This document shows, one piece after another, positions 9,802-45,104 of a stretch of DNA of 64,000 nucleotides (the stretch's first letter is position 1; every line of letters starts with the position of its first letter). Location: assembly GCF_016756595.1 (NCBI RefSeq), contig NZ_AP023257.1, positions 6,340,001 through 6,404,000 on the forward strand, written 5' to 3'. Below the pieces are notes generated by a model. That model saw only the letters and a program-made list of their open reading frames with translations, made no database searches and was not told the origin of the DNA. Both the position numbers and the translations under genes were made by a program. The DNA comes from Mesorhizobium sp. L-2-11. Its GTDB lineage: Bacteria > Pseudomonadota > Alphaproteobacteria > Rhizobiales > Rhizobiaceae.

Positions 9802-11529
9802 ATGGGAGAGACCGTCGCACAGGCGATCGCGCGTGCGTTGAAGCGCCACGGCGTCCAAGTGGTCTTTGGCCAAAGCCTGCCGTCCGCCGTCCTCCTCGCC
9901 TGCGAGACGATCGGCATCCGCCAGCTCGCCTACCGGCAGGAGAACATGGGTGGCGCCATGGCAGACGGCTTTGCCCGCGTCTCGCGCAGTATTGCAGTGG
10001 TTGCTGCACAAAACGGGCCGGCCGCGACACTCCTTGTGCCACCACTTGCCGAGGCCTTCAAGGCGAGCGTGCCCATCGTCGCTCTCGTGCAGGAGGTCGA
10101 ACGGCCGCAGATCGACCGCAACGCCTTCCAGGAAGTCGACCACTTCGCCCTCTTCTCGTCCTGCGCCAAATGGGTGCGTCGTATCATCACCGCCGACCGA
10201 GCAGATGACTATGTTGATCAGGCCTTCGTCGCGGCCGGCAGCGGCCGGCCGGGTCCGGCGGTGCTCCTGCTCCCGGCAGACCTTCTGCGCGAAAGAGCGA
10301 TCGCACCGAGGCATACCCGCAGAGTGAGCTTAGATCGCTGGCCGATCGACCGATCGCGGCCGGAAGACAGCGTCCTGCGCGAGGCGGCTGACTTCATCGC
10401 TGCAGCCGACGCACCCGTGGCGGTGGCCGGCGGAGGCACGACCTCGCCCGCGGCTTCCGCGGCAATCTCTCGCCTGCAGGAGACGGCTCACCTGCCTGTC
10501 TTCACGACCAATATGGGCAAGGGCGCTGTCGACGAATGCCATCCCCTTTCGTGCGGCGTGCTCGGCTCGCTCACGGGCGCGCGCTCGCTCGGCCGACGGA
10601 CGAAGCCGATCCTTGGCGAGGCCGACCTCGTCCTCCTCGTAGGCACGCGCACCAACCAGAATGGAACGGACAGTTGGCGCCAGATCACACCTGGCGCGCG
10701 TATCATCCATATCGACGTCGACCCAACCGAGGTCGGTCGCAACTACGAGGCGCTGCGCCTCGTGGGCGATGCTGCGGTGACGCTGAATGCCCTTTGCGAA
10801 ACCCTCGAACGCCTCGACCTGTCGCGCCGCCGCACCGCGCGAGCGCAGGCTGAAAAGCGCATAGCGGCCGCCTGGGCCGCCTTCGAAGTGGACCGTGCAT
10901 CGCTAGCGGGCAGCAACAATAGCCCCATACGGCCCGAGCGCGTGATGAGGGAACTGCAGGCGCGCCTGACGCCCAAGACGATCGTCGTGGCGGATGCTAG
11001 CTATTCGTCGATGTGGATCATCGGTCAGTTACGTGCGCAGCGCGCCGGCCACCGCTTCCTCACGCCGCGCGGGCTCGCGGGACTCGGCTGGGGGCTGCCT
11101 CTGGCTATCGGAGCGAAGGTAGCGCGACCGGACGCACCAGTCGTCGCGGTCGCTGGCGATGGCGGTTTCGCGCACAGCTGGGCGGAACTCGAGACGATGG
11201 TACGCAGCTGCGTGTCCGTCGTCGTGATCGTCCTAAACAATGGCGTGCTCGGCTTCCAAAAGTATGCCGAGACGATAAAGTTCGGGGCCTATACGAGCGC
11301 CTGCCATTTCGCTCCAGTCGACCACGCCGCGATCGCCCGGGCATGCGGTTGCGGCGCGACCGTGGTTAGGGCACCGGGCGACATAGGGCCTGCTCTCGAC
11401 GAGGCGCTCGCCTCTGGAAGGCCCTGGCTCGTCGAGGTCGTCGCCGATCCCGACGCCCATCCTGCTCTTTCCCTTTTCGACGGCACGGTTGACCAGAACG
11501 CCGTTCGCGACGTGGGGTCCGTCGGATGA
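9802..11529 (+). CDS. ThDP-dependent acetolactate-synthase-like enzyme
   Basis: A 575-residue protein with the three-domain order of the acetohydroxyacid synthase/oxalyl-CoA decarboxylase family: Pyr domain with the catalytic Glu in YRQENMGGAMADGFAR (about residue 50), a central domain, and a PP domain with the ThDP motif GDGGFAHSWAELETMVR followed by VIVLNN. Family members decarboxylate a 2-oxo acid and either release an aldehyde or condense it with an acceptor. With an aminotransferase before and an SDR after, it may make a C-C bond in an amino-ketone or amino-alcohol pathway. This is inference. Its stop overlaps the SDR start by 4 bp (ATGA), showing translational coupling. Confidence 0.85.
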   Translation: MGETVAQAIARALKRHGVQVVFGQSLPSAVLLACETIGIRQLAYRQENMGGAMADGFARVSRSIAVVAAQNGPAATLLVPPLAEAFKASVPIVALVQEVERPQIDRNAFQEVDHFALFSSCAKWVRRIITADRADDYVDQAFVAAGSGRPGPAVLLLPADLLRERAIAPRHTRRVSLDRWPIDRSRPEDSVLREAADFIAAADAPVAVAGGGTTSPAASAAISRLQETAHLPVFTTNMGKGAVDECHPLSCGVLGSLTGARSLGRRTKPILGEADLVLLVGTRTNQNGTDSWRQITPGARIIHIDVDPTEVGRNYEALRLVGDAAVTLNALCETLERLDLSRRRTARAQAEKRIAAAWAAFEVDRASLAGSNNSPIRPERVMRELQARLTPKTIVVADASYSSMWIIGQLRAQRAGHRFLTPRGLAGLGWGLPLAIGAKVARPDAPVVAVAGDGGFAHSWAELETMVRSCVSVVVIVLNNGVLGFQKYAETIKFGAYTSACHFAPVDHAAIARACGCGATVVRAPGDIGPALDEALASGRPWLVEVVADPDAHPALSLFDGTVDQNAVRDVGSVG

Positions 11530-12311
11530 CGGAAGAAAACAGCGAATCAATGGGCGTTGCGGTCGTCACCGGCGGGGCAACCGGGATCGGGTTTGCGACC
11601 GTCGCGCACCTAATCGAGGCTGGCTGGCGCGTCGCTTTCTTCAGCCAGACGAGAGAGCGGGTCGAGGCTGCCGCTGTCGATCTACGCGCCCATTTTCCAG
11701 CTTGGAAGATCCACGCCGACACGGTCGACCTACGTGACGAAGGCGGCCTCTGCCGCTTCTTCGCCAATGTCCGCGAGCGCTGGGGAACAGTGTCCGCGCT
11801 CGTCTGCAATGCTGGCTATTCGCCGAAAGGTCCAGACGATCAACGACTCGCTCTCGGCAAGATGCCGCTTGCTAAATGGGATGACGTTATCCGGGTGAAC
11901 CTCACGGGCGCCTTCCTCTGTTGCCGCGAAGTGCTGCTCGGTATGGCGGAAGCCCGGCAAGGCCGTATCGTCCTGATCGGCTCACTCGCGGCGCGTACGC
12001 AGCCGAAGATCGCGGGTGCGAGCTACGTCGCCTCGAAGAGCGCGCTCGCGGGGCTCGCCCGCTCGATCGTGAGCGAATACGCAGGGCTCGGCATCACCGT
12101 GAACACGATCTGCCCTGGCCGTATCCTAAGCAATATGACGGGACCGCCCGAGACGCCCGGGAACCGCGCTGCACTCGCGCGGATCCCGATCGGACGGCTC
12201 GGCGGGCCCGAAGACATCAGCCGCGTCATTGAGTTCCTCGTCCGCCCGGATTCCGACTTCATCAACGGAGCCATCATCGACGTCAACGGCGGGGAGTTCG
12301 CCCCCTCCTAG
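11526..12311 (+). CDS. Short-chain dehydrogenase/reductase
   Basis: A classical SDR of 261 residues: cofactor motif TGGATGIG at the start, NAG, catalytic Ser in IGSLAAR, YVASK (Tyr and Lys), and INGAIIDVNGG at the C-terminus. It is the last gene of the 8.4-12.3 kb operon, coupled to the ThDP gene by an ATGA overlap. It probably reduces a keto intermediate, or oxidises an alcohol, made by the two upstream enzymes. An internal ATG at 11550 is an alternative start but the overlap favours 11526. Confidence 0.85.
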   Translation: MTEENSESMGVAVVTGGATGIGFATVAHLIEAGWRVAFFSQTRERVEAAAVDLRAHFPAWKIHADTVDLRDEGGLCRFFANVRERWGTVSALVCNAGYSPKGPDDQRLALGKMPLAKWDDVIRVNLTGAFLCCREVLLGMAEARQGRIVLIGSLAARTQPKIAGASYVASKSALAGLARSIVSEYAGLGITVNTICPGRILSNMTGPPETPGNRAALARIPIGRLGGPEDISRVIEFLVRPDSDFINGAIIDVNGGEFAPS

Positions 12312-12369
12312 CCTGTCGGCCGGCGGCAAAGCCTCTATGACGAGGGCCCGCGCGCAGCCCACTCCCGCA

Positions 12370-13060
12370 CAGGCTGCGCATGTGCAAAGAGGTGCAAATT
12401 GGTTCACCGGGCCTACTGCACTGGCAGTCATGGCAGATTGCTGGCGAACGCCTGGAACACGCTGGCTTGGGGACAGGCGGCGGCGAAGGCCAGGCGGATG
12501 CGCGAGACAGTTTTGATGTCCCGGGCGCCGATTTGAGCAGCTTGAGCCGCAGCGTGCGAACTCGGTCCTGCTCACTTAATGGGACCTTGGCACGGCGTCG
12601 CGCAGGGTGAGCAGGAGCCAATATGCGACGGTGTGCAGTTCGAGGTGGACTTGGTTGCGATTGGTGAGCGCAGGAGGTGCGGTCGGAGGCGAGTTGGCTC
12701 TTGCGCATCTTGATAGGTGGCCACGGGCGCAGTAGATCCCGTCGTAGTGGTGCCCGGCCGAGCCGCTGTCGAGATTGGGGACGAAGCGGATGTCGAGGCC
12801 GATCGCAGTCGCCTCGATGCGGCGCAGGGGCGGCGTTTGGCTTTCAGGATTGCGACTTGTAGCGGGTCTCGGCATGGACGCGCAGAACAGACTTGCGCTT
12901 GAGCGCGCTTCGCACCATGCAATGACTTGCACCGGCCGTAATGGCCGTCGCCGCGCACCAGGATGTGGGGGTCGGCCAGCAGGTGCGGATGCGTACAAGA
13001 GGCGGCGCAGATGGCCGCATCTCTTTGCCCGTTGGAGTCTTGCCGGGGCGCAGGATCATA
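12370..13060 (-). pseudogene. IS1380-family transposase relic
   Basis: Frame-broken pieces of an IS1380-type DDE transposase on the minus strand: ATAIGLDIRFVPNLDSGSAGHHYDGIYCARGHL around 12.75 kb, KSQLASDRTSC around 12.69 kb, AYWLLLTLRDAVP around 12.6 kb and RTLRLKLLKSAPG around 12.56 kb. Multiple frameshifts make it inactive. It abuts an aminotransferase relic on the same strand. Confidence 0.7.
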
Positions 13061-13079
13061 GCGACCGGGCGCCCGGTGG

Positions 13080-13375
13080 CGGGGACTGCCAGAATTCTTC
13101 CAACGGGCCTTGCGGCACGTCGGGGAAGAACACCAGCCGAACGAGATCGAAGCCACTCCCATCGTAATTGCCCGTGATAAGCGCCTTCGCACTTCGCCAT
13201 TTTCGGACGTCTTTTGAAAGCGCGCGCGACCGTGATGGCCATCATCACCACCTCCGAACCTGTAGTTGTTGAAGCGTACCTGCTCGCAGAAAGGCACTCT
13301 TTCACAAACAACGTCGGCGAATTCGATCTCGCACTCGGCCAGATTGGCTAAGCTGAGCTCGATGCCGATTCGCCT
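13080..13375 (-). pseudogene. Class III aminotransferase relic
   Basis: Two frames together read LANLAECEIEFADVVCERVPFCEQVRF, then TGSEVVMMAITVARAFKRRPKMAKCEGAYHG. This is the phosphate-site region of a GSA-aminomutase-like aminotransferase, homologous to the intact gene at 8440 (TGTEAVMFAIKAARAF, EGAYHG). Only about 100 residues survive, with at least one frameshift. Confidence 0.7.
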
Positions 13376-13603
13376 CATGGGAGGCCATTTATATCGGGGT
13401 GGCCATAACAATGTATCGGAGCAGTGAAATTGTTCTGGAAATCCAAATTGAACTTATCGTCGACCCCTGTTACTAGGCTGCCTTTTCGGATTTCAAACAA
13501 GTGGAAGAAGCGCCTGATAGACACTCTAACCCGTATTGTCCAGGGCATGAACTTTTTGTGCGCTCGTGCGCAAGGCGGGAGATGCTGAGGTGATCATGGC
13601 TGA

Positions 13604-14905
13604 TCATGATCCGAAACTCCGCTCCTTGGTATTTCTGTGAGGCTCCTCTGGTGCGGTAAACACGGATTGTCCATAGATCTGAATCTTGTTGCAGAGCCGC
13701 GCCAAGTCTGACAGATCGTGACTTGCGGTAAGGCAGATGCGTATGCCCGCATGGCCGCGGGCGACCGTCGGAAAGAACGTGACGGATGTGTAAAAGCCAT
13801 CATCTAACAGGTGCGCTGCGAAATCAATGGCCGCAAATTCGTCGCCCACGTTGATCATGCGAATCGGCAGAGGAGCGCCTCGCTGATCTGTCTGGATGAG
13901 CTCGTCGAAAAGGGCAATGCGCTCGACCAATTGACCTCGGCGAACCTTGAGCTCGCTCGTCCGGTGAATTTCCGCCGAGGCTATAGCGGCACCGACAGCT
14001 GCGACGTTGGGCGAAGCCGAGAAGGCATGCGGAATGGAGTAGCAACGAAATAGCTCTTCCTGATACGCTGTTCCAAGCATGAGCATGCCGCCCGACGCGC
14101 CGAAGCCCTTGGCGAGGGACGCCGCGACGATCGTGCGCTGACCTAGCTCAGGGGGCAATTGCGAGCGCGCAAAGCCTTCACCATTTTCGCCAAAGAGGGA
14201 AATTCCGTGCGCGTCGTCGATGTAAAGAAAAAGGCCATACTTTTCCTGCAACTGGAGAAGCCCTTCGATCGGCGCGAAGCCGCCCATCGAATAGACGCCA
14301 TCGCACACATAGGCGACGATTGGATGCTTGCGGCAAATCTGCTCCAAAGCATCGAGGTCATTGTGAGGAATTGTCTCGACTTGGGTCTCCTCGGCCACAA
14401 CTGGCTTATGAAAGGCGAGGGAGGCGTGGGCCAGATGGTCGAATACCATGACAGGTCTTTGACCTTCCGTTAGATGTCCGGAGGCGATGATTGGCAATGC
14501 GCCCATGTTGGCAATCATGACTGACGAATAAGCAATAACGTGCGCCCCAAAAAGTTGGGAAAGTACGCCCTCAAGATTACCAATGAGCCCGAAATTCAGC
14601 CGCGTGCGTGCACATGACCAGTGGAGTGATCCGTATTCCTCCATTGCGGCAACCGCGCCGGCAACGATAGCTGGATGATTGTCCAGGCCGAGGTAGCAAC
14701 AACGCACATAGTCGGCAACGGTAACGCCTTGTAGCTCGCCTCTCGTGAGCCTGACCGTCCTCCCCTCCATCGACCGTCCGTAAACGGCCATGAGACCACG
14801 TTGGTGAGCCCGTTCGAAATGCATTCGCGTCCGATCAATGACCGAAGCGGTGTTGCGGAAACGACCGGCGCTCACAACGCTTGCTGCGGGTTCTACTGCA
14901 GACAT
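13604..14905 (-). CDS. Alpha-oxoamine synthase (KAPA synthase / serine palmitoyltransferase-like)
   Basis: A 433-residue PLP enzyme of fold type I in the alpha-oxoamine synthase family. Visible landmarks are YLGLDNHPAIVAGA, GSLHWSCARTRLNFGLIGNLEG, FDHLAHASL, CDGVYSMGG, YIDDAHGISLFGENGEG (Asp and His of the active site) and AASLAKGFGASGG with the PLP lysine. These enzymes condense an amino acid (Gly, Ala, Ser) with an acyl thioester and release CO2. A good ribosome site (AAAGGA) precedes the ATG at 14905. No bio genes are adjacent, so biotin synthesis is unlikely. Candidates are sphingoid-like lipids or amino-ketone signals of the CqsA type. It is divergent from a LuxR-type regulator across a 794-bp AT-rich spacer. 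Confidence 0.82.
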   Translation of the reverse strand: MSAVEPAASVVSAGRFRNTASVIDRTRMHFERAHQRGLMAVYGRSMEGRTVRLTRGELQGVTVADYVRCCYLGLDNHPAIVAGAVAAMEEYGSLHWSCARTRLNFGLIGNLEGVLSQLFGAHVIAYSSVMIANMGALPIIASGHLTEGQRPVMVFDHLAHASLAFHKPVVAEETQVETIPHNDLDALEQICRKHPIVAYVCDGVYSMGGFAPIEGLLQLQEKYGLFLYIDDAHGISLFGENGEGFARSQLPPELGQRTIVAASLAKGFGASGGMLMLGTAYQEELFRCYSIPHAFSASPNVAAVGAAIASAEIHRTSELKVRRGQLVERIALFDELIQTDQRGAPLPIRMINVGDEFAAIDFAAHLLDDGFYTSVTFFPTVARGHAGIRICLTASHDLSDLARLCNKIQIYGQSVFTAPEEPHRNTKERSFGS

Positions 14906-15699
14906 CAGGACGTCCTTTCACAAGTAAGGCTTTGATTAGACTTGGGTTTTCATGTCTAGTTGCATTATCAAAAGTGGTGATACCCACCAGATTTCCCAGT
15001 AATACCAACATACATAGATTTATTATGTGAATAATTATTAATAATTCTTGATTGTGAATTTAAATAATCATGGCTGCATGGTAATATTTCCTCGTAAAAA
15101 AGAGGCGGGCTGACGCCCCCCGTGTGGACGTGACGAAAGCTGTTCGCGGAAAAAGACGAGATGGATCAGAGTACGGCGGAGTTCGCAGCGGTGGCCAGCG
15201 CTGCAGGTTTCATGACACAACCGCGAAATCCAACAACGTCATCGCGCCGAAGCTTTCGACGATCGACGACTGCTCCGGCAGCATCGATGCCAATGAACCT
15301 GAAAAACCTCCTTGGCGATATCCGAACCGATTGTGGCAATCTCTTCGATGGATGGCTCTCCCTCATGTGACTTTGACACACACCATGGCACTTCGATGCC
15401 GGGAGCGGAGGCTGTCCACCTCTACGGCGGCACGCCGGCCAACTGACGTAGTCTGGAGAGCGCCTGCAGACATTGACATAATATGGCGATCAATTTGTAG
15501 AAAACGTCATTTATGAGGGTTATACCTTCAGAAATATTTCGTAACCGACATTTAACTCGATGATAATCTTACGGCCTCGGGGACGTGTTACAGCTTTGGC
15601 GATGCCGGCCGAGAACGGCGCGCAGAGTTGCAGCCTTACAGCCGGCAGCTTTGTCCACCAGTGACACATCCGGCGCAAGATGCCTGTGGAGCCGAGACT
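14906..15699. promoter_or_regulatory. Divergent spacer between alpha-oxoamine synthase and LuxR genes
   Basis: About 0.8 kb without a supported gene. The stretch 14940-15090 is markedly AT-rich compared with its surroundings and likely carries the promoters. A short interrupted dyad GTGG-TGATAC-CCAC lies near 14976-14989, which might be a regulator site; this is weak evidence. Confidence 0.4.
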
Positions 15700-16545
15700 A
15701 TGGAACGTCTGCCGATGACTGCGGTACCTCAGCCTCGAGGGCTGGCAACCAGAGTTTCAGACCAGTTTTATTTGGTCCCGTCGATGCATCTCCCGGCAGC
15801 AGCCGGGGAGGCGTTTGCGGTCGAATTCGCCCGATTTCTCGACCAGACTGATGGCGTTGGTCAATCCGAGCAGTTGTTCGACGTGTTATCTGCTTTTGCC
15901 CTGAATTTTGATTGCCCATGGATCTCATATGGCTCTCTTACACCTGACCAAAGAATTTCAAAGCCGGCCCCACGCGATCGAGAGGTCATGGTGAATTATC
16001 CTGATGAATGGCAGGAGCGCTATTTCGAAATGAGCTATGATAGAATTGACCCCATCATCAAGACGAGTCGAAAACGCGCGGGCGCCTTTCGATGGAGTGA
16101 GGTGTACAACGATACAAGCACGACTGAAGACGAACGGCGCGTTTTCGATGAGGCTGCGACGTTCGGCTTAAGGTCAGGAATCAGCGTTCCATTGCACTGC
16201 CCCGATGGCAACTTTGCGATCATGAGCTTTGCTCAACCCCGGAATCGCGAATTCCAGAATAGAACAGTCACATACTTGGAGCTTGCCGCGTTTCATTTCC
16301 ATCTGAGAGTTGCGAAGTTCGCGAATTCGAGGGGCAGCGAGGAAGCTCCTGACCTTTCTTTAAGAGAAAGGGAGTGTATTCTGTGGACAGCGAGAGGGAA
16401 ATCGTCATGGGAAATAGGAAAAATTTTGGGAATTTCCGTAAACACCGTCAATTTCCATATAAAAAACGTAATGCGAAAAATGGATACTGCGAGCAGAACG
16501 GTCGCTGCTATAAAAGCCGTAAACTTTGGAATTATCGAATTGTAA
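15700..16545 (+). CDS. LuxR-family autoinducer-binding transcription factor (solo)
   Basis: A 281-residue protein with an N-terminal autoinducer-binding domain and a C-terminal LuxR-type HTH (about residues 215-275: LSLRERECILWTARGKSSWEIGKILGISVNTVNFHIKNVMRK). The ligand-pocket signature is present: Trp and Tyr in CPWISYGSL, Tyr and Asp in MSYDRIDPI, and Trp in FRWSEV. This supports binding of an acyl-homoserine lactone or similar signal. The ATG at 15700 has a GGAG site upstream; ATG 15715 is an alternative. No luxI-type gene is in the window, so it is a solo or pairs with a synthase elsewhere. The divergent alpha-oxoamine synthase is a possible target. Confidence 0.85.
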   Translation: MERLPMTAVPQPRGLATRVSDQFYLVPSMHLPAAAGEAFAVEFARFLDQTDGVGQSEQLFDVLSAFALNFDCPWISYGSLTPDQRISKPAPRDREVMVNYPDEWQERYFEMSYDRIDPIIKTSRKRAGAFRWSEVYNDTSTTEDERRVFDEAATFGLRSGISVPLHCPDGNFAIMSFAQPRNREFQNRTVTYLELAAFHFHLRVAKFANSRGSEEAPDLSLRERECILWTARGKSSWEIGKILGISVNTVNFHIKNVMRKMDTASRTVAAIKAVNFGIIEL

Positions 16546-23256: not shown

Positions 23257-24099
23257 TCAAGTCCACCAGAGAACAAGATCTGGCCGCGCAAATCCGAAAA
23301 AGCAATTCAGCAGCACGCGACGCTTTCCGTTGCCTGCTTGACCGGTAACCCCATGAACGAAACCGCCGTCAAGTAGCGCGATATCCCCGGCCTTGAGCTG
23401 GATTTCGCGACTAGGCACGGCCTCGAGATAAGCTGCCGAATAGGGATATCCCGTGGTCTCCACACCCTGCGACTTTCGGTCGTCAACTGTCGGCTTGTGG
23501 CTCCAGAGCCGCAGATTGCCGCCTTCCTCGGACATACTAGGGTAGAAGTTGAGCGCGGCGACGGTATTGTGCGCCACCGCAGAGAGCTCGTAGTCGTTCC
23601 CAGCACGTAGCACTTGAGCGACATCGTCGTGGGGGTCCAAGGAAAATGTGCCGCTGCCGGTCCAACTGAGAGCCCGACAAACGTTAGCCTGACCGTGTTC
23701 TGAACGCGCCAACCGCAATTCAATGCCTTGTTTGTGAAGCTCGCGCTTCAATGCGTCGAATACGGCTCGGACCGGGTCAACTAAATTGCCAAAAAGGGCG
23801 TCAACGTGCGGCCGCGCATTTTCCGCCTCCTTGAAATAGGTGGCTGCATCCTTCCTGTAGTGGGATGCACCGACATATTGCCCCGGCACGCCATCTTTGC
23901 GCTCGTTGAGACCGGGACTGCCAAAAAACTTCGCGGTGATCTCCTCGGCTATTTCGGTGCTGAAAGCTTGGCTGATGTGCAGAGCCGTGATCTCACCTTT
24001 TAGGACTGAGATGATCTCCGCAGTGCTGATCGAGCCGGTTCGTTCTTTGATCGTAAGAGGCGAGATGGCCGGCGTTTGAGCTACTTGGTTAGTCGCCAT
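23257..24099 (-). CDS. 2-oxoglutarate/Fe(II)-dependent oxygenase
   Basis: A 280-residue protein with the jelly-roll oxygenase pattern. The proximal Fe ligands are His and Asp in DPHDDVAQVL (about residue 160), the distal His is in FVHGVTG, and a following Arg (KRRVLLNCFFGF) is placed to bind 2-oxoglutarate. Start at 24099 because it overlaps the end of the upstream aminotransferase by 11 bp, so the pair is translationally coupled. The substrate is probably the diamine or diamino acid made by that aminotransferase; hydroxylation is the most likely reaction. It does not look like the PhyH-type EctD. Confidence 0.75.
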   Translation of the reverse strand: MATNQVAQTPAISPLTIKERTGSISTAEIISVLKGEITALHISQAFSTEIAEEITAKFFGSPGLNERKDGVPGQYVGASHYRKDAATYFKEAENARPHVDALFGNLVDPVRAVFDALKRELHKQGIELRLARSEHGQANVCRALSWTGSGTFSLDPHDDVAQVLRAGNDYELSAVAHNTVAALNFYPSMSEEGGNLRLWSHKPTVDDRKSQGVETTGYPYSAAYLEAVPSREIQLKAGDIALLDGGFVHGVTGQAGNGKRRVLLNCFFGFARPDLVLWWT

Positions 24100-25348
24100 T
24101 GGTTTTCTCCTGTAGTGCCTGATCGAGGATGGCAATGCCGTGATCAAGTTCGTCATCTGAGATTGTTATCGGCGGAAGGACTTTGATGACGTCGCGATTT
24201 GGCCCGGAGGATTCGATCAGCAGGCCCTTTTCGAACGCGACATCGTGCACACGGCCAACAACGGCCTGTGACCGGCACTTAAGGCCGGCCATCAGACCAC
24301 GGCCGCGCTTTTGTTCGATGCACTTGGGAAATTTCGCAACGAGGCGATCAAGGTGCTCTTGCAGTTTGACGGCCGTCCCCTCGACGGCTTTAGTAAACCG
24401 CCTATCGGACCACATTTTGCACATGGCCGCGGAAGTCACAAAGGCGAGATTATTGCCTCTAAAGGTCCCGCTGTGTTCTCCCGGTTTCCATATATCCATG
24501 TCGGGGCGAATCAGAACTATGGACAACGGATTACCTGAACCGCTTAGCGATTTCGAAAGACACACGATGTCGGGCTCGATTTTCGCGAACTCGAACGAGA
24601 AGAAATCGCCCGTTCGTCCCGAACCTGCCTGAATGTCATCGACGATGAAAACAACGTCGTGCTTACGGCAAATGCGCTGAATTTCTGCAAGCCAAGGTGC
24701 GGATGCAGTGTTCATGCCGCCTTCTGCCTGGATGGGCTCCAGGATGATTGCGGCCGGCTTTTCTATCCCGCTGCCTGGGTCGCCCAACACGTGATCAATG
24801 TAACTCGCGGAATCGAAAGTTTGGTTCGGGTAGTTCTCGTAAGGGACACGGATCACATCGTGGCGAGCAACGCCGCCAAGCTGTCTGGTTGACGCTGAAC
24901 CCGACACCGCCAAGGAGCCGAGCGACATGCCATGGTACGAATTTGTGAAGGCCATGACACTCGAGCGGCCGGTATATTTTCGCGCCAGCGCCAACGCCGC
25001 TTCGTTAGCGTTTGTCCCGGTTGGCCCAGGAAACTGTATCTTGTAAGAAAGGCCCCGGGGCTTCAGGATCGAATTGACGAACACTTCGATGAAATCACGC
25101 TTTGCAGCTGTATACATATCAAGCGACAAGACAATATTTTGATCGGCGAGATATTGAATTGCCGGCGCAATGATATCCGGGTTGTTATGACCGTAATTGA
25201 GCGCGCCGGACCCTACAAGGAAATCAATATATGGCTTTCCGGACTCGTCCCAGATTGTCGCCCCAAGTGACTTTTTGAAGACTGTTGGAAATGATCGTCC
25301 ATAGCGACGAACGTTAGACTCGTAAGCGTCGAAAATGTCGATATCCAT
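24089..25348 (-). CDS. EctB-like class III aminotransferase (diaminobutyrate-2-oxoglutarate type)
   Basis: A 419-residue PLP enzyme with strong EctB character: DIFDAYESNVRRYGRSFPTVF at the start, FLVGSGALNYGHNNP, FPGPTGTNANEAALALARKYTGR, NSYHGMSLGSLAVSG, IILEPIQAEGGMN, FIVDDIQAGSGRTGDFFSFE and LSKSLSGSGNPLSIVLI with the PLP lysine, then HSGTFRGNNLAF. EctB makes 2,4-diaminobutyrate from aspartate semialdehyde. No ectA or ectC is in the window, so the product is probably not ectoine. The ATG at 25348 has a GAGG site; longer frames upstream lack homology. It is coupled to a 2OG oxygenase. Confidence 0.85.
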   Translation of the reverse strand: MDIDIFDAYESNVRRYGRSFPTVFKKSLGATIWDESGKPYIDFLVGSGALNYGHNNPDIIAPAIQYLADQNIVLSLDMYTAAKRDFIEVFVNSILKPRGLSYKIQFPGPTGTNANEAALALARKYTGRSSVMAFTNSYHGMSLGSLAVSGSASTRQLGGVARHDVIRVPYENYPNQTFDSASYIDHVLGDPGSGIEKPAAIILEPIQAEGGMNTASAPWLAEIQRICRKHDVVFIVDDIQAGSGRTGDFFSFEFAKIEPDIVCLSKSLSGSGNPLSIVLIRPDMDIWKPGEHSGTFRGNNLAFVTSAAMCKMWSDRRFTKAVEGTAVKLQEHLDRLVAKFPKCIEQKRGRGLMAGLKCRSQAVVGRVHDVAFEKGLLIESSGPNRDVIKVLPPITISDDELDHGIAILDQALQEKTNGD

Positions 25349-26211
25349 TAAAGGGCCTCTCATGAGTCTTGCGATCCACGTTGCAGGTTCTTGTCGGACG
25401 CATTCCAAACCATTGATTTCTACGATTAGCTGCGGCCAATCTCTGACTTAAAGCGAACCTATCATGGTCAGCGACTTGCATTCGCAAAGAGTCTGTAAAC
25501 TTGTTTGACGAATCTGTTGCAACGCTTGGGATAGCGATAGCGTGACAGTCAGTACCCGCCTTGCGGCAACGCTATCGGCGGCGTTGTTGGCGGGGGCAAC
25601 TGACATAGCCGCACCGGTTTTTCCAAGCATGACTGCAATCACGATGCTTGGGTATTTCTCTATGTCGGCCGTGACGGGATCCTTGCCGACGAGTAGCTGT
25701 GACAGATAGCGATTTCTCTGCTTCGATGTGACGGCGAGACCGATGCTCGCTCGAGTTTCGTTTTGGAACGCGGACGAGCCAGACCGCGAACTGGCGACAA
25801 AACTGGAACTGACCGCGGCCTCTAATCGCGGCCGTGGCCGCCGGCGGTGATGGGGCCGTTCGCTGGGCGGCGCGTTGGCCAACCCCTGGCTTCGCGGCGT
25901 CTACAATGCCTCAGTCGGCCCTCGCGAGGTGACGGCCGCACTGCAGGCCACGGGCCGACCACGCGAGTGGTGTTCGCCACCCACGAGCTGACGCAGACGG
26001 CGCTGCTTCGAGAAGGCGCCATCGTAGCGGTATCGACAACCCCGGTGTTCGCCTCCGCACTGGTAGTGACGATGGCGCGGCTTTTGGAGCGCACCACGAC
26101 TAAGAGTTCCCACCCTTACACTGGTCAACATTCATACGATCGAAAACGCTGGCTCTGGCGACGCCGCTGGCGATGTGTCCGATGCCGCTTTTTCTACGCA
26201 AGGTTTCACTC
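25349..26211. other. Decayed region, possible sugar-regulator/transporter scraps
   Basis: No intact gene. A plus-strand frame from about 25541 starts with a signal-peptide-like stretch (STRLAATLSAALLAGATDIAAP) and soon stops. Another around 25970-26040 reads RVVFATHELTQTALLREGAI, which resembles the C-terminal ligand-binding part of LacI-type regulators. Both are too short to name with confidence. Confidence 0.3.
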
Positions 26212-26291: not shown

Positions 26292-26307
26292 TGGCACGTT
26301 CTGTGCT
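26292..26307 (+). promoter_or_regulatory. Sigma-54 -24/-12 promoter of iscN
   Basis: TGGCACGTTCTGTGCT fits the -24/-12 layout with the invariant GG (26293-26294) and GC (26305-26306) exactly 10 bases apart; the -12 box reads GTGC rather than TTGC. The start codon is about 40 bp downstream. Confidence 0.85.
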
Positions 26308-37132: not shown

Positions 37133-39133
37133 TTATGCCTCCCCCTGATTGAGAACAGGAATGTCTGCTCTGGCATAGAACGGCAACATGGGTCCGAGAT
37201 CAAAGGTCGTTGCGGGCGCAAGCCTCTGGACCGACCGCGGCCATGTCTCGGTCGAGACGCCATCGATACCTCGCGCCAGCGTGCTGGCGAATCGGGGCAT
37301 CAGCGGTGCGAGCGTCTGTGCCAGGATCGCAGCGGCCGTCGTCTGAAGGGCGAGCGACGTGCGGGTGCGGGCGGAATAGAGACGTCGCGCCGCCTCATAG
37401 TCTTGCGCCCGTCGGTAGACTACGCAATCGCTGACGAAATCGCAGGCCTGCGCGGCCGCTTGCCGGACCGAGAAGCCATCGTCCGAATAGACGCGTTCCA
37501 TCGCCGCGCGATGGATCTCTATCCGAGCAAAGAAAGCGCGATCGGCGGGGGCCCAGTCGCCTGCGTCGGGCACACAGCCGCCAAAGTCCCGCTTGATTTC
37601 CCGATGCAGCGCACCAAGCCAATTCAGCCAGATCCCTTGGAACACCTCGTTCTCGGTGCGGCGTAGCGCGTCCAGCGTGAAGTTCGTTCGCTCACCTTCC
37701 GGGCGCGTCAGGCCCAAATTTAGACGGACGACATCGACTCTCTTTGGTCCCAGAACTTCTTTGCCCCAGACCGCATGGCCGCGGCTGGTCGAGAACTTCT
37801 GGCCGTCGAGTAGGTAGAACTCGTTCACATAATACCGCATGCGCGGGGTCCAGTGGGAGAAGACCTCAGCATAAAGCGCCGGATAAAGCAGGGCGTGATA
37901 GAAGGAATTATCGAAGCCGAAGAAATGGACAATCTGCCAGTCATTGCTGGGCAGGGTCGCGTCCCAGTCTCGACCGAGCGATGTAGCTAGCGCCTGGATG
38001 TTGTAAAGAAAACCAAACGCCATCTCTGGCCAGACCCAGATCACCTGCCCCGGGAGCCCCTCGGCTGGCAGGCCCCAGTCCGAGGGGTGGGTGATGGGCA
38101 CGGAAAAGTCGCCACGTTGGCGTAGACGCGCGAAGAGGTCCATGATCCGAACTGGGGCGCCCGACGCCCTTAAATGCCGGTCGATATTGTCGTAGCACCG
38201 TTCCAGCGCAAGTTCGGGACGGCGCACGGATCCGACCACCGGCGCCTCGGCCGAGTGCCGCGACCGGACTGCATCTAGGTCGTGGCATAGGTTCGGTGCG
38301 CCGCATTCCTCGCAGATGTTGCCACCAGCGGAGCTGCCGCAATCGGGGCAGAGGCCGCTTACATCCGGCTCGTAAAGGTAGTCGCCTGTCACAGCATCGA
38401 AGAGCGCAGGGCTCTGGCGCAGATCTACCGCCGTGCTGCTCAGAAGACTACGGAAACACGCGGCTTGAAACTCTGCATAAGCGCTATCGCCCAAAGTCGG
38501 GAGGAAGCTGTGGACCTCACAGTCGAGAAGCGCAAGCGTGGCTCGAATCTCATGGGCGTAGTGGCGCGCCACCTTTGCGGGCGTCGATTGCTCGGCATCG
38601 GCACGCGTGGCCACGTAGCTCTGGTAATCGTCGCTTCCAGTCAGGTGATAGGCTTCGACCCCTTTCATGCGCAGGAAACGCGTGTAGACATCGGCGCCAA
38701 GATAAGGGCCAGAAAGATGCCCCAGATGCAGATCGCCATTCGGCGTCGGCGGCGTGGAGAAGACGAAGATCGGCCCGCGGGGAATCGCGACCAGGGCAGC
38801 AGCTTCGAGGGCGGCCTTGCCGTCGCGCCAGTAGACATCGACGAAGTTTAGGTTTTCGAGCCCATCGTTGTGCAGCACATGCGCTTCAAAAGGATGGAAC
38901 AGAACGACATCGCCGGCTGCGACCGAGATTTCCCCAAGGTCGGTCCTGACCTTGCCCGCTCCAGACAGGACCACGAAGGCCTCGATTTCGTCGTGCCGAT
39001 GGGGCTCGGATGTGACGCCTGGTGCCACCTTGCCAAATGAAAACCCGGTGCCCGCGCTTCCCGTCCCAAGCGCAGCCATGTCGATACCGAACACCCGCGA
39101 CAGCTGCGTTCGAGAAAACGTGGATTTCCGCAT
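37133..39133 (-). CDS. Cupin/methionyl-tRNA-synthetase-like fusion enzyme (hydrazine-forming type)
   Basis: A 666-residue two-domain protein. Residues 1-115 are a cupin with metal ligands His45, His47, Glu51 (HRHDEIE) and His85. From about 120 a class I aminoacyl-tRNA synthetase core of MetRS type follows: HLGH at 136-139 in PPTPNGDLHLGHL, a zinc knuckle with Cys262, 265, 274 and 277, and KFSTS at 446-450 as the KMSKS loop. A reduced helical C-terminal part follows. This fusion is known from actinomycete pathways (Spb40 of s56-p1, Tri28 of triacsin), where it joins N6-hydroxylysine and glycine to form an N-N bond. A role as a second MetRS is unlikely given the cupin and neighbours. The start at 39133 has a GAGG site. 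The FAD N-hydroxylase and FAD-oxidase genes it needs lie upstream on the same strand. Confidence 0.88.
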   Translation of the reverse strand: MRKSTFSRTQLSRVFGIDMAALGTGSAGTGFSFGKVAPGVTSEPHRHDEIEAFVVLSGAGKVRTDLGEISVAAGDVVLFHPFEAHVLHNDGLENLNFVDVYWRDGKAALEAAALVAIPRGPIFVFSTPPTPNGDLHLGHLSGPYLGADVYTRFLRMKGVEAYHLTGSDDYQSYVATRADAEQSTPAKVARHYAHEIRATLALLDCEVHSFLPTLGDSAYAEFQAACFRSLLSSTAVDLRQSPALFDAVTGDYLYEPDVSGLCPDCGSSAGGNICEECGAPNLCHDLDAVRSRHSAEAPVVGSVRRPELALERCYDNIDRHLRASGAPVRIMDLFARLRQRGDFSVPITHPSDWGLPAEGLPGQVIWVWPEMAFGFLYNIQALATSLGRDWDATLPSNDWQIVHFFGFDNSFYHALLYPALYAEVFSHWTPRMRYYVNEFYLLDGQKFSTSRGHAVWGKEVLGPKRVDVVRLNLGLTRPEGERTNFTLDALRRTENEVFQGIWLNWLGALHREIKRDFGGCVPDAGDWAPADRAFFARIEIHRAAMERVYSDDGFSVRQAAAQACDFVSDCVVYRRAQDYEAARRLYSARTRTSLALQTTAAAILAQTLAPLMPRFASTLARGIDGVSTETWPRSVQRLAPATTFDLGPMLPFYARADIPVLNQGEA

Positions 39134-39452
39134 GACGAACCTCAGCTGTCGAAACAGTGGTCTCTTCGGCTGCCGACGCAACAGCATCTGCTGCAAGTTG
39201 CGAAGGCAGCCCGACACGTTGGCCCCCCGTCAGAATAGTCCGGCTCTGGGCCCCAGGCGGGCGAAACTACGGGCGCCAGGAGGGCTTTAGGCGTCAGAGA
39301 AGAGCGCCCGGCGACACCTTCACATCGACATACCGAAGCGTCGTGACGGACTGCAGGCGATGCTCCAGTAGCCGGCAATCAAAACCATGCTCTCCGCGCA
39401 TTTTTTTGGCGGCCGATCAGTTTCGTTTGCATTCCCGCCTGGTTCCGTGAGC
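39134..39452. other. Spacer between the dioxygenase and cupin-MetRS genes
   Basis: About 320 bases without a supported gene. No -24/-12 element or NifA site was found. The gap suggests a separate promoter for the cupin-MetRS gene or loss of an intervening gene. Confidence 0.4.
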
Positions 39453-40232
39453 TCAATCGCGATAGAAAATGCCGTTTGGGAGCTTGAGGTTGTCGAGATC
39501 AGCCACTTTGCCCTCTGGCGGATTAAGGGCGCGCTTAAGCACGTTATATTCAGCGCGGGTCGGTCCACCGGTTGAAGCACGCTGGAACACCAAGTAGAGC
39601 GTCCGCCGCGAACGATTGCTTTTATTCGGCTTCGAGTAATGCGGTGCATAATCGTCGAAGATGAAGATGTCGCCAGCCTTCCATACTACGGGTTCCCAGG
39701 AGAATGTTTCGGCGACCTCAGGATCAATCACCCCGCCGGCATCCATGGGAAATACCCCCTTCTTGTGGTTGCCGGGGCTGAAGAAAAGGCCACCATTGTC
39801 CGGGTCGGAATCGTCAATGCCTATGGCAACGATCGCATGGACCATCCGGTCGGGCAGCCTGTGTGGAATGTGATAAATGTCCTGATGCGGGCGATAACCG
39901 CCGCTATCGGGATAGTGGAAGATCAGCAACTCCTTGAGTCTGCGCGAATCTTCGCCAAGCAAATCCTCGACCGCAGAGTTTATGCGCTGATCTTCTAGGA
40001 GGAGAAGACGCAATGGGTCATGGAAGTCCAGAAAATTCTCGGCCTTAGAGGTGATCTTTCGATCATCAGTCGTCTTCTCGAACCACATGAGCCATTTATC
40101 ATCGCTAACATCCCAGCGTGATATGTCTTCAACAGATCTGGAAATACCTTCCAGAGTCGCGGGATCGAAGAACCTCTCGAGCCTGACGTATCCGTCTTTC
40201 TTCCACTTTTCTCTTTGTGCATCGGTCAACAT
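39453..40232 (-). CDS. Phytanoyl-CoA dioxygenase (PhyH) family oxygenase
   Basis: A 259-residue Fe(II)/2-oxoglutarate enzyme of the PhyH family: LTDAQREKWKKDGYVRLERFFDP at the start, Fe ligands His and Asp in YRPHQDIYHIPHR (about residue 120), the distal His in DDYAPHYSKPN, and a 2OG-binding Arg in RSRRTLYLVFQ. The family hydroxylates small molecules and amino acids. The ATG at 40232 follows GGAGG at ideal spacing; 40268 is an alternative. It sits between the FAD fragment and the cupin-MetRS gene and could tailor their product. Confidence 0.82.
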   Translation of the reverse strand: MLTDAQREKWKKDGYVRLERFFDPATLEGISRSVEDISRWDVSDDKWLMWFEKTTDDRKITSKAENFLDFHDPLRLLLLEDQRINSAVEDLLGEDSRRLKELLIFHYPDSGGYRPHQDIYHIPHRLPDRMVHAIVAIGIDDSDPDNGGLFFSPGNHKKGVFPMDAGGVIDPEVAETFSWEPVVWKAGDIFIFDDYAPHYSKPNKSNRSRRTLYLVFQRASTGGPTRAEYNVLKRALNPPEGKVADLDNLKLPNGIFYRD

Positions 40233-40428
40233 GCGAAAAGCCTCCTGTTGGAAAGAGTGGTTGGTCAAACATTCCGGTTAGAGGCAGTCGGGCGCCGTCA
40301 GGGTGTGGGCCCACGGAGACGATACTCCACGGCATGCAGACGGCGACGCAAAGTGCGTTCCGCTCCGGGTGGATTGCAAGGCTTTGTTGTCCCTCCTCAA
40401 TGGAGAGATCGCCCAGGCCCGTAAAGAT

Positions 40429-41001
40429 CTATCGATCCGGTACGTCTGCATGGTAGTCACGGCCGAGCATGCTGTTGATGGTACGACTGCCCGATAAGAC
40501 GACCTTTCGTGCAGCCTGACGCAACGCAAGTCGTGCGCCGCGAAAATTTTTGCGACAAGTTCCCGTTCCGGTCGGGCGATCAGGGAGGCACGTCGCTGGC
40601 ATCGGGTCCATCGATGCTCCAAAAACGAGTATTGTCCGCACAAGTTCGGCGCTAGACTGACCCATCCGAGGCCAAGCCGGGCCCAGGGCTTCCCTAAGCT
40701 CGTCCCGATCATTTACCTCACCCGGCCCAGCCACCACACGCATCGCTACGGGCCGGAAGCCTCCGCTGACGGCCGACGCAGCCATGGCCGTCAGGGCCAT
40801 TGCACACTTTCGAGTGAGCGACCTGGTACGGTTTCGACGACCGTGGGGCAAATCCTCGCCCGCAGAATAAAGCGATGCGCCCATAGGTCCAAGGGCATGT
40901 TCAGTCACGATGAGTTCGGAGCGGACTCCGGCCGTCGCCGCAGCGGAGGCGGATAAAATTCCTTGGATGCCACCGCCGATGATCAGTAGTCGCTGAGTCA
41001 T
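40429..41001 (-). pseudogene. FAD-dependent amine/amino-acid oxidase fragment
   Basis: The start is a clear FAD-binding Rossmann motif (QRLLIIGGGIQGILSASAAATAGV) followed by ALGPMGASLYSAGEDLPHGR, as in D-amino-acid/glycine oxidase-like proteins. After about residue 75 the sequence stops resembling the family. At 40711-40745 it contains a repeat also seen at 49011-49045, so it is probably interrupted and truncated (190 residues instead of about 370). It overlaps the N-hydroxylase stop by 4 bp. In hydrazine pathways an oxidase of this type releases hydrazinoacetate from the N-N-linked lysine intermediate, so its loss would block the pathway. Confidence 0.65.
40711..40745 (+). repeat. Short dispersed repeat (with 49011-49045)
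   Basis: CTCACCCGGCCCAGCCACCA and following GCATCGC closely match CTCACCCGGTCCAGCCACGA...GCATCGC at 49011-49045 in the same orientation. It lies inside the broken FAD gene here and in non-coding DNA next to another truncated FAD-oxidase gene at 49 kb. Confidence 0.6.
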
Positions 41002-42490
41002 ATCCCGCTGCCCATTTCTTCGGCTACCGGGTCGGGCCAGCTCTCGACGGTGGTACGGCTGATAAAGCCAGGATGCTCAGGGTTCGCGCACGGCGCGCGC
41101 TGTAGAAGGCTGTCAAGAATGCGGCGAGCTCGCCAAGCCAGCAGGCTTAGGTTCGGATCGGCCAGCCCGCGCTGCCCGGGATTGGCGTTCTGTACGAAGA
41201 TGCGTCTGTCACGCGGTCCGTCCCAGCACACCGAAAAATCCGCGTTGATGACCAACTCATTGTCGGTCTGTTGCAGCCGATCCGCCATCGGTTCCAAAAA
41301 GCTTGGCACGGCGTTCTCGTAACCGGTGGCCAGGATGACGATGTCGGCCGTGACTTCTTCGACGTCGCCCAAGCCGCGCTGCAGCGTCAAGTTGTGACCC
41401 GCGCCGGCGTTGATGCAGCGCGAAACGTTGCAACCCGGCCGCAGTGCGATGTCACATAGGTCTGGCTCAAGAAATTCGTGGCGATACAGCGCCTGGTAGA
41501 CGGCGCGCAAAGTGCGATCCGAAATACCATCCGAGGCGAGCACGAAACGCCGCAGGAACAGCTTGCGCTGCGGCTCGCTCATTGCCGCGAAACGATCCGA
41601 AAAACAGGGCATGAACAACTCGTTTGTGAACGGGCTGTTGTCGAGGGGCAGGTAGTTTTCGCGCTGCGAGACCCAGGTGATCGAGGCAGGCCGCCGTTCT
41701 CTTGGCCCACCGACCAAATGCAACAGTACCTCGGCTCTCCCGACTGGCCTCCACCAACGACGCAAACATGTTTTTGCCGCACCTCAGGATGGATGTGCAG
41801 CAAATCGGATGAATGGAACAGGTTGCGTCCGATCCAGCCCTGAAATTGAGGTGGAATCCACGCTTGCTTGCCGATGCCGACCACCAGGTCTCTGGCACTA
41901 AGCACCGCGTCGTCCGTCCGCACCCGAAACTCGCCATCATAGCGTATTTCGCGGACGGTCTCGCCGCCGCGCACAAGTGGGTTCCTGCGGAACGCCCAGT
42001 TCAGGTATTGCTCGAACTCAGCCCTGAGCACAGCATCGAACTGTGCATTCAGGAAGTGGTACAGACGCCCGTTCTCGTGCAGGTAGTTTATGAAAGTGTA
42101 GGCGGATCGCGGATTCACCAGCGTTACCAGATCCTTGACGTGGCTGACCTGGAGTTCTGAAGAGTCGAATGCGCTGCCTGGATGCCAGCGGAAGTCAACT
42201 TGCCGATCCAAGAACAATGCCCCGTGCCCGATTTGCTCGTGTATCTGACACGCAAGGCTCAAATTGGACGGGCCAGCACCGATCCCAATGCAAGAGAGAT
42301 CCAGTTGTCCTGCTCCTGCTGACGCCTCCCAATCAGGCGCTATATGCGGCGAATGTCGGCCATGGCCGCTGGGCTTGCCCTTCCCGCACGCATCGTCGAC
42401 ACCGCAGGACTTGCAACAGTTTGTCCGCGCGTTCGTAGTATCGGGTGTGACGCCCGCGGATGCCGGCTCCGTGATGAGATCGGCACTCAT
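40998..42490 (-). pseudogene. Lysine/ornithine N-monooxygenase (frameshifted)
   Basis: Related to IucD/PvdA/SidA. FAD site GIGAGPSNLSLA, then LDRQVDFRWHPGS, VKDLVTLVNPRSAYTFINYL, EFEQYLNWAFRRNP and the NADPH site HVCVVGGGQSG occupy one frame. From about 41733 homology continues in the next frame (AEVLLHLVG, SITWVSQRENYLPLDNSPFTNELFMP, ALYRHEFLEPDLCDIALRPG, ILATGYENAVPSFL) to 40998. One missing base explains the break. Otherwise it is well preserved, so the mutation is recent or an assembly error. Such enzymes make N-hydroxylysine or N-hydroxyornithine. No siderophore synthetase is near; the cupin-MetRS downstream needs exactly this product. The N-terminus has an unusual Cys-rich extension (CCKSCGVDDACGKGKP). 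Confidence 0.85.
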
Positions 42491-42763
42491 GCCGGCGATA
42501 TGTTGCGCGTGGCTGGCATCGAGAACCCCGCCTCGATGACCCCCGCGTGGTCAGTGACATGCTTTCGCAGCCTATCCCTCATTGCAATTGGGCTCAGTTG
42601 CCCGCCTCGACCGTGATGAGCCGACCTTCGGCCTGCTTGGCGACCAGCGAGGGCGCGGTCATGAGTGCGGCGACAGCATTTTCCCGTGGGTTTGATCATA
42701 GAAGACATCCGCTGCTGCGTTCGGGAGGGTCCCATGCATCGAACGTGCCAGAGCAAAACATGA

Positions 42764-43607
<844 letters not shown>

Positions 43608-43692: not shown

Positions 43693-44571
43693 TCAGTCAG
43701 TTCTATCGTTTGGATCGGCAAACTCACACATCCTGCAAAGCAGAAAACCAGCCGCTCCATTCATGCGATCGACGATTTCGCAAAAAACTGGGCTTTTAAA
43801 GAGATCGCCATATTCGTCGCATAGAAGGTTGCCCAATACGTGACGCCGCTCAAAATCCATGGAGCAGAGAGTGACCTCGCCGTTTGGAAGGAGTACATTC
43901 CGATACTGCCGTTCGTCCACGCATATCAGCGCTCCGACGACTGGCTGCCGTGGTTCTACAATCTTAGGGTCTACGCTTCCACCCCTGCTGCTCACCGGTC
44001 GCGCGCGAACTAGGGCTTGGGCAGGGATAATGTCGGCGATATCGGGATGGGGCTCACCCAAAACCACGAATCGGATCGAAGGGATGTCGGCGTCGACGAG
44101 TTGACCAACCAAATCGCGATACTTGGCTCCGACAAGGCGGCTATTCATGTGGGCGCCATCATCAAAAACATGAACCACGAATACCCCCAACCGCAGCGCC
44201 TGCAAGCGTTGTAGATCCTGCCCCTTCATTCCCACAAGCGTCGTGAAAATCCTGATGCCGTGGCCTTTGGCGGAAGCGTGCTCGACCATTTCGGTGCAAT
44301 CCGGATTGAGCCATGGCTCAGAATACCCGGCAAAACTAATGTCGACGGAGGCTGGTACGCGCGCCAGACAGCGCTTGAAATCTCCAAGACTAAGATGCTT
44401 CGTATCAGATACCTTTGTTTGCCGGTCAGCGAACTTGTCCTGCGGACAATATGAACATCCCACGATGCACCCTGTGGTCGTCGTTATCTCCAAAACTCTG
44501 CCGGCTGGGATAGCAGAGCGCAGTTCCGGTAAAATCATTCGTTGTGACTCCCACTCGTCTTGGTCATGCAT
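43693..44571 (-). CDS. Radical SAM protein with C-terminal cysteine-rich region
   Basis: A 292-residue radical SAM enzyme. The cluster motif CxxxCxxC is GCIVGCSYC (about residue 24 from the ATG at 44571), preceded by ITTTT. ISFAGYSEPWLNPD replaces the usual GGEP segment. The C-terminal part has ICVDERQYRNVLLPNGEVTLCSMDFERRHVLGNLL and ends FLLCRMCEFA, a SPASM/twitch-like auxiliary cluster region. Relatives modify peptides or small molecules; no precursor peptide was found. The frame is open to 44739, but the ATG at 44571 fits the family length. Neighbours are relics, so its partner genes may be lost, or it belongs with the cupin-MetRS set on the same strand. Confidence 0.78.
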   Translation of the reverse strand: MHDQDEWESQRMILPELRSAIPAGRVLEITTTTGCIVGCSYCPQDKFADRQTKVSDTKHLSLGDFKRCLARVPASVDISFAGYSEPWLNPDCTEMVEHASAKGHGIRIFTTLVGMKGQDLQRLQALRLGVFVVHVFDDGAHMNSRLVGAKYRDLVGQLVDADIPSIRFVVLGEPHPDIADIIPAQALVRARPVSSRGGSVDPKIVEPRQPVVGALICVDERQYRNVLLPNGEVTLCSMDFERRHVLGNLLCDEYGDLFKSPVFCEIVDRMNGAAGFLLCRMCEFADPNDRTD

Positions 44572-44744
44572 AACGTCCAGTATGGTGTCTTTGGCTTCAT
44601 GACACCGACGGTCAAGACAGTCCGAATGAGCCCAGCCATCTCCGCCTTGGCAGCAGTCAACAGCCGGTTTCCTCAATCGGCCGAGCGGACTATCAACGAA
44701 CTTTGGGCGCATCGGCGCGGCAGGGCGGCGCAACCGCAAAGTCG

Positions 44745-44827: not shown

Positions 44828-45104
44828 CGTTCTTATGCGGTCAGCCCCCACTCAACATTGCCGCATCTCCAGCAAAGGCCGTGCCAGCGCGCTTAGCCGC
44901 AGCAACTGCACGAGTAGGCTTCGAGAAACCTCACGCCCAAGGCGGCCGGTTGTTTTGGACCAGACATGTTTTTTGTCGCTGTCAGCTTTTGGACATGCAT
45001 TTCAGACGCTTGAGGACAGACTTGGCTGTCTCCCCTGCGGTAATGTTGGCGTCGGCTCATCATCTAGACTAGCATCATTTCGGCGCCGGCTGTGTGCGCG
45101 GAAG
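44828..45104 (+). repeat. Dispersed repeat, copy 2 (with 36283-36556)
   Basis: Partner of 36283-36556 in the same orientation. Here it follows an acdS tail fragment by about 20 bp, whereas copy 1 lies between the nif-tail block and the cupin-MetRS gene. Confidence 0.75.

Follow-up and report, generated by a model that had tools for sequence, protein, structure and literature searches.

A candidate N-N bond-forming operon of rhizobia with a NifA/RpoN-type promoter and a PhyH oxygenase inside the remains of a flavin oxidase gene

The hydrazinoacetate modules of s56-p1 (Spb38, Spb39 and Spb40), triacsin and azaserine biosynthesis have an amine N-hydroxylase (NMO), a cupin fused to a methionyl-tRNA synthetase (MetRS)-like domain, and a DAO-type FAD oxidase. 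Here we describe a putative operon with the same NMO and fusion in Mesorhizobium sp. L-2-11, within a window of 64,000 nucleotides (6,340,001-6,404,000 on the first contig; the genome measures 7.4 Mb and is closest to Mesorhizobium and Aminobacter). A DAO was formerly part of the rhizobial operon as well, and two related loci (L012 and L017) keep it intact; unlike the described modules, the operon has a NifA/RpoN-type promoter, its DAO is displaced by a PhyH-family oxygenase in 33 of 35 rhizobial loci, and no nonribosomal peptide synthetase (NRPS) or polyketide genes are among the features annotated around a plasmid-borne relative (L088). The operon is ordinary by its synthetase; it is unusual by its nitrogen-fixation promoter, by the oxidase-to-oxygenase swap, and by its recurrence in symbionts. 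We think it probable, on balance, that this is a NifA-controlled operon making an N-N bonded amino-acid conjugate, and that the PhyH 2-oxoglutarate oxygenase took over the step of the DAO.

Two parts of this system are already in print for M. japonicum R7A. The protein Q8KGM6 is known as an enzyme, and is among the hydrazine synthetases identified by Zhao et al. 2021 (PMC8664883), according to PMC11705231; the passages on it in these papers mention neither NifA, DAO nor PhyH. NifA control has been described for the monooxygenase gene msi280 of ICEMlSymR7A, which has the same promoter and the same neighbours, acdS and fdxB, as the window; the gene is annotated as an L-lysine 6-monooxygenase, and the passages that treat it draw no link to hydrazine chemistry (PMC3538637). 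A search of the open-licence PMC literature found nothing joining hydrazine, rhizobia and cupin. What looks new is the evolutionary history, i.e. the replacement of an oxidase by an oxygenase.

Gene layout and the cupin-MetRS fusion

The genes lie on the minus strand and are, in order of transcription, the NMO (two overlapping frames, 42490 to 40998), the start of the FAD oxidase, PhyH, and the fusion; they would form one transcript.

41579..42490, minus strand: NMO, N-terminal piece, its frame lost near 41.7 kb (first half of Pfam Lys_Orn_oxgnase, 2.2e-59)
40998..41765, minus strand: NMO, C-terminal piece (second half of Pfam Lys_Orn_oxgnase, 6.7e-21)
40429..41001, minus strand: DAO-type FAD oxidase remnant (residues 1-139 of intact DAO align, at 40591-41001)
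39453..40268, minus strand: PhyH-family 2-oxoglutarate/Fe(II) oxygenase, intact (Pfam 3.4e-41)
37133..39217, minus strand: cupin-MetRS-like fusion, putative hydrazine synthetase, intact (694-aa frame; Pfam Cupin_2 5e-12, tRNA-synt_1g 1.4e-51)

Because most close homologs of the fusion are 666-671 aa long, its start is likely the ATG at residue 29 (about 39133). PhyH likely starts at the ATG at residue 13 (about 40232). The two NMO frames each match their own half of Lys_Orn_oxgnase, and therefore reflect one frameshift near 41.7 kb; they match the intact protein of a related locus (L005) at 100% and 99% identity. This flavin N-hydroxylase, broken in the window, is intact in 32 of the 35 loci. 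The ATG of the FAD oxidase at 41001 overlaps the NMO stop as ATGA. An intact DAO next to the synthetase, the Spb39/Tri27-type trait, is not present in the window, which holds the remnant only.

The fusion carries the ATP motifs HLGH and KFSTS and the zinc Cys4 motif CPDC...CEEC in its MetRS-like domain. The zinc-cupin residues of PyrN are H50, H52, E56 and H90 (PMC8664883), and they align with H73, H75, E79 and H113 of the fusion; the cupin Glu is kept in 60 of 65 fusion rows, the remaining five being gapped at that position. Identity to other rhizobial proteins is 81-96% (53% for one broken copy, L060), and it is about 45-52% outside the rhizobia, in Streptomyces, Chromobacterium, Stappia and others. 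In a tree of 72 rows built by a quick method, the fusion clusters with hydrazine-synthetase loci, apart from MetRS.

The NMO family is common to siderophore enzymes and the annotation names the fusion a tRNA ligase, so that two other identities have to be weighed, a siderophore operon and an ordinary MetRS whose neighbours are there by chance; we find either scarcely credible. Against the best MetRS model the fusion reaches 239 bits, below the cut-off of 553; it is only 26-30% identical to the other MetRS-like stretches of the genome itself, and has the cupin residues of hydrazine synthetases. Score, identity and tree rule out a canonical MetRS. A siderophore operon was ruled out on one annotated region, the 18.8 kb around L088, where neither a siderophore synthetase nor an N-acyltransferase is among the 13 annotated features.

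We infer that Q8KGM6 is the ortholog of the window fusion, because a genome (G027) that we take to be M. loti CJ3sym, a carrier of the R7A island, has no third strong MetRS-family match; its only two are the housekeeping MetRS and the ortholog of the window fusion. An accession search of the open-licence PMC literature found nothing that ties Q8KGM6 to an msi number. By analogy with the activity listed in print for Q8KGM6, the fusion would perform ATP-dependent N-N bond formation.

The preliminary description, made from the letters alone, had recognized the fusion with its three motifs, the single NMO frameshift, and the coupling of the genes on one strand, all of which hold, the domains being confirmed by Pfam. 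Its proposal of an s56-p1/triacsin-type N-N pathway in a symbiosis island is supported by the kinship and residues of the fusion, and the two outcomes that would have spoken for other identities, a fusion grouping with MetRS and siderophore genes beside an intact relative, did not appear.

Two related observations concern the protein family. PDB entries 9l8v and 9vq4, named methionine-tRNA ligase, match the MetRS-like part with E about 6e-58, versus 1e-34 for the next, ordinary MetRS; the KFST motif is common to both, and these entries may be misnamed split hydrazine enzymes. In 15 of 146 Mesorhizobium genomes (G002, G004, G039, G045, G046, G056-G058, G064, G069, G071, G089, G117, G136 and G140) there is another cupin-MetRS family, a distant one with 26-28% identity along most of the fusion.

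Displacement of the DAO by PhyH

The 35 rhizobial cassette loci come from 33 genomes, one plasmid and the window; some are near-identical, and the loci are not independent. Kept outside this set are L108 (a fusion fragment of G145 with no PhyH, NMO or DAO) and the fusion fragments of G080 and G100, which have no PhyH and were not fetched. Among 38 non-rhizobial loci the NMO is present in all, the DAO lies beside the synthetase in 37, and PhyH is found in none (tblastn, E <= 1e-5), with a different gene order in a few. In the rhizobial set, PhyH is present, whole or broken, in 33 loci, and in each of these the DAO is decayed or gone; it is intact only in the two PhyH-less loci, S. terangae (L017) and M. 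caraganae (L012), the latter having an intact NMO-DAO-fusion set. In 25 of the 33 loci, scraps of the DAO N-terminus are found upstream of PhyH. In 11 (L005-L009, L011, L013, L018, L031, L088 and L105), scraps of the C-terminus (about residues 288-346) separate PhyH from the fusion, and eight of these 11 have scraps on both sides. From this flanking we conclude that PhyH landed inside the DAO gene. Since PhyH sits within DAO remains and only two of the 35 loci have an intact DAO, it seems to have replaced the DAO, not to have been added late.

The FAD gene is truncated, as had been proposed, but the loss is not recent: a recent loss in this strain was ruled out, no intact DAO being found in any of the 33 PhyH loci. 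For the same reason there is no support for the DAO as a newly broken part of a working pathway, release of hydrazinoacetate by it cannot be assumed, and the role of added tailoring enzyme suggested for PhyH gives way to the likelier one of DAO replacement.

Ratios of nonsynonymous to synonymous substitution rates (dN/dS) were computed pairwise for pairs with dS above 0.1, using the longest alignment piece per gene, from 23 loci and the window rather than all 35. The medians are 0.18 for NMO, 0.15 for PhyH, 0.21 for the fusion and 0.85 for the DAO scraps (10-90% range 0.66-1.04); they omit L009, L010, L022, L060 and the two DAO-intact loci, which leaves 18 loci for the first three genes and 15 for DAO. 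If none are omitted, the medians are 0.171, 0.156, 0.220 and 0.825, respectively, and the two intact DAOs compared with each other give 0.26-0.30. NMO, PhyH and the fusion are kept; the DAO drifts.

Of the 35 loci, 32 have an intact NMO, 28 an intact PhyH and 32 an intact fusion; in 24 all three are intact, so that the set predicted to be broken here yet intact in relatives is indeed found whole. The NMO of this strain is split over two frames, and at E <= 0.001 the genome has neither another NMO copy nor another DAO of this type; with the only NMO broken, hydroxylation is probably lost, which would stop the pathway at the outset, barring an assembly error. We note that complete NMO-DAO-fusion sets also occur on two accessory plasmids, beside NRPS genes in S. 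meliloti pSmeSM11b (L089), and beside a phosphoenolpyruvate-mutase-family gene and two oxygenase genes in R. rhizogenes pC5.7b (L093).

The facial triad HxD...H of PhyH (H128, D130 and H210) is invariant in 22 of 22 aligned sequences. In PhyH-type halogenases the triad Asp is replaced by Gly or Ala; D130 is invariant here, which speaks against a halogenase. PhyH occurs in 31 of 146 genomes of the genus, all 31 of which have a hydrazine synthetase, as a fusion in 29 and as split proteins in two. A protein search gave 28 PhyH relatives, and PhyH relatives were found in 37 plasmid records. Seven of these records were opened, with those of Dietzia and Rhodococcus (32-33% identity) left out; one carries the fusion cassette (L088) and six a second cassette, with separate cupin and MetRS genes behind PhyH.

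This split NMO-PhyH-cupin-MetRS cassette of nod plasmids (L084-L087, L116) has the same functional set, and its PhyH is 72-81% identical to that of the window; it differs in that cupin and MetRS are separate proteins, about 31% identical to the fusion. An MFS exporter and the NMO lie upstream in M. amorphae and in Rhizobium CB3090 and CCGE531 (L085-L087), whereas in the bean symbionts R. etli CIAT 652 (L084) and R. phaseoli S3 (L116) the cassette lies between nodA and nodD2; it is decayed in R. etli IE4803. On plasmid pB of CIAT 652 no NMO is annotated before PhyH, yet an alignment spans most of an NMO at 6651-7934. Among the matches listed, 12 Rhizobium plasmids have a synthetase directly after PhyH, and two further genomes of the same family also carry the second cassette. 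Split MetRS and PhyH relatives, apparently on the same contigs, in Paraburkholderia bryophila, Collimonas pratensis, Bradyrhizobium 1.29L and Mesorhizobium SARCC-RB16n suggest that the two are linked there as well. NifA-type motif matches occur in L084, L086 and L087, some of them inside coding sequence, and we claim no promoter from them. A pea-specific bacteroid phytanoyl-CoA dioxygenase of R. leguminosarum is chromosomal (PMC7950203).

PhyHs of the fusion cassette form one clade (100/98) that joins the rhizobial PhyHs of the split type with moderate support (91/85). A fully supported branch sets the NMO of the fusion cassette apart from split-type NMOs; this NMO shares 45% identity with that of a DAO cluster versus 35% with the split type. 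PhyH alone thus seems to have moved between cassettes, in a direction suggested by the DAO scraps and the root as drawn. The two cassettes may make different compounds.

The NifA/RpoN-type promoter

Upstream of the NMO lie the following features, also on the minus strand.

42735..42751, minus strand: -24/-12 (RpoN) promoter CTGGCACGTTCGATGCA, the same 17 bases as printed for R7A msi280
42793..42808, minus strand: NifA upstream activator sequence (UAS) TGTCGGATACTCGACA, a motif match
43693..44739, minus strand: radical SAM/SPASM gene, a neighbour of the operon behind a second NifA-type promoter (44872-44886)

The NMO promoter equals all 17 bases printed for msi280, and matches exactly once in this genome. 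In the R7A island msi280 lies near acdS (msi273) and fdxB (msi275) and, in nodules, a lacZ fusion to it gave 371.6 Miller units in the wild type, 268.9 in a nifA1 mutant and 7.3 in a nifA2 mutant (Sullivan et al. 2013, PMC3538637). The gap in the numbering would fit msi279-277 being the DAO remnant, PhyH and the fusion. An NMO is present in 34 loci; of these, 19 have the exact 17-mer, 32 the core TGGCA[CT]N5[AT]TGC at the same place (exceptions L010 and L012), and 31 the UAS TGTN10ACA (exceptions L012, L102 and L105); both core promoter and UAS are present in S. terangae, a different genus. The operon is apparently under NifA/RpoN control, as judged from these motifs, the published NifA2-dependent nodule expression being that of the R7A gene only.

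The neighbourhood has further features of note. Between the two NifA promoters (42547-43550) are broken remains resembling a GDP-mannose dehydratase, probably the noeL fragment of R7A. The UAS of the second promoter is at 44951 and 44980. The radical SAM/SPASM gene behind it scores slightly below the Pfam cut-off for Radical_SAM and slightly above it for SPASM, and is 98% identical over its full length in CJ3sym (L021). In R7A the counterpart of this promoter faces a 2.3-kb region with the noeL fragment and no complete annotated gene (PMC3538637); the radical SAM/SPASM gene may have been overlooked in that annotation. Elsewhere in the window, a -24/-12 motif lies at 26292-26306 by a diaminobutyrate transaminase gene, and an uncharacterised biosynthetic cluster at 2686-14905, with ATP-grasp ligase-like, pyridoxal-phosphate aminomutase-like, acetolactate-synthase-like, SDR and BioF-like genes, has a TraR-like regulator (15628-16545) beside it.

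Proposed pathway and its implications

In the pathway that we propose, the NMO would hydroxylate the side-chain amine of a basic amino acid, most likely lysine; the MetRS-like domain would activate a small amino acid, most likely glycine, and esterify it onto the hydroxylamine; and the zinc cupin would rearrange the ester to a hydrazine. PhyH, with its gene inside DAO and its relatives in the second cassette, would take over the former DAO step. Our best guess is that it hydroxylates the carbon next to the hydrazine nitrogen, upon which the conjugate would fall apart as with the DAO (oxidative N-dealkylation); hydroxylation without cleavage would be nearly as likely.

PhyH might instead do another job than the DAO, hydroxylating the conjugate or a precursor that stays uncleaved, such that a hydroxylated hydrazino-dipeptide is the product and the DAO became useless. 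We regard this as quite possible, albeit not the outcome we expect. The nearest solved folds to the PhyH model are amino-acid C-hydroxylases, of proline, leucine and ectoine, and since the synthetase that accompanies PhyH in the second cassette has a different pocket, PhyH may act on the amine half common to both; the perfect exclusivity of PhyH and intact DAO in the 35 loci nevertheless suggests the same step, though these loci are related.

Nine pocket positions, picked by E. coli MetRS numbering, read TPTDWAFNH in the window fusion versus TPTDWSFNH in S. fragilis and G. harbinensis, one Ala/Ser change. Both species are represented among the 38 non-rhizobial loci and are azaserine producers with hydrazine synthetases (PMC11705231), and the match hints at glycine, as a lead rather than a test. 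In both DAO-intact rhizobial loci the Trp is replaced by Ser, and in L017 the His is replaced by Leu as well. The enzymes may be right and the substrates others, with ornithine or diaminobutyrate for lysine or another amino acid for glycine, which we consider unlikely. Ornithine, lysine and putrescine hydroxylases are among the best NMO relatives of solved structure; a diaminobutyrate-2-oxoglutarate transaminase in the window (24089-25408, minus strand; 646 bits, above the NCBIfam cut-off) could supply another amine, and msi260 of R7A, a transaminase of the same kind, is NifA2-dependent (PMC3538637); and a diaminobutyrate/alanine hydrazine synthetase has been reported (PMC11705231). Lysine and glycine are favoured by the pocket, equal to that of the azaserine-producer enzymes bar one residue, and by a published screen in which the R7A enzyme appears to have been assayed with N6-hydroxylysine (PMC8664883).

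Several observations weigh against the proposal that a NifA-controlled operon makes an N-N conjugate with PhyH in the place of DAO. The pocket of the split cassette differs from that of the fusion. Both PhyH and the NMO need O2, which is scarce in nodules, and we know of no N-N product on record for the operon. Four PhyH loci branch outside the two DAO-intact loci in the fusion tree (support 80-87, not starred); a single PhyH insertion event is possible, the support in this tree being weak. The DAO-intact loci are themselves odd, in that L017 has a broken NMO, L012 has no UAS and a poor promoter, and both differ in the pocket, and several DAO remnants retain open frames of 240-313 codons. Finally, ten of the 35 loci, this strain included, have no complete gene set, and an msi280 insertion mutant of R7A is Fix+, with normal nitrogen fixation (PMC3538637).

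These last two points, with the break in this strain, would also suit a decaying relic that has no present role. We judge that very improbable, since 24 loci keep NMO, PhyH and fusion intact with dN/dS of 0.15-0.21, the promoter is conserved, and that of R7A is active in nodules (PMC3538637).

The proposed operon connects two literatures that we found unconnected, that of natural-product hydrazine synthetases and that of the NifA-controlled lysine monooxygenase of the model Lotus symbiont, and it predicts an N-N metabolite in nitrogen-fixing nodules. Such a nodule metabolite may serve to feed kin or be directed at the plant; the NifA-controlled rhizopines follow a comparable logic. The sister operons with oxidase or oxygenase are a natural experiment on how PhyH would act on a hydrazine, and the intact gene sets of legume symbionts make the question accessible to direct tests. 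We advance only tentatively, at a little less than even confidence, the joint claim that bacteroids make an N-N molecule under the switch of nitrogenase, that rhizobia recruited such a pathway at least twice (as the fusion cassette in symbiosis islands and the split cassette on nod plasmids), and that PhyH would be a new class of hydrazine-processing enzyme that displaced a flavin oxidase.

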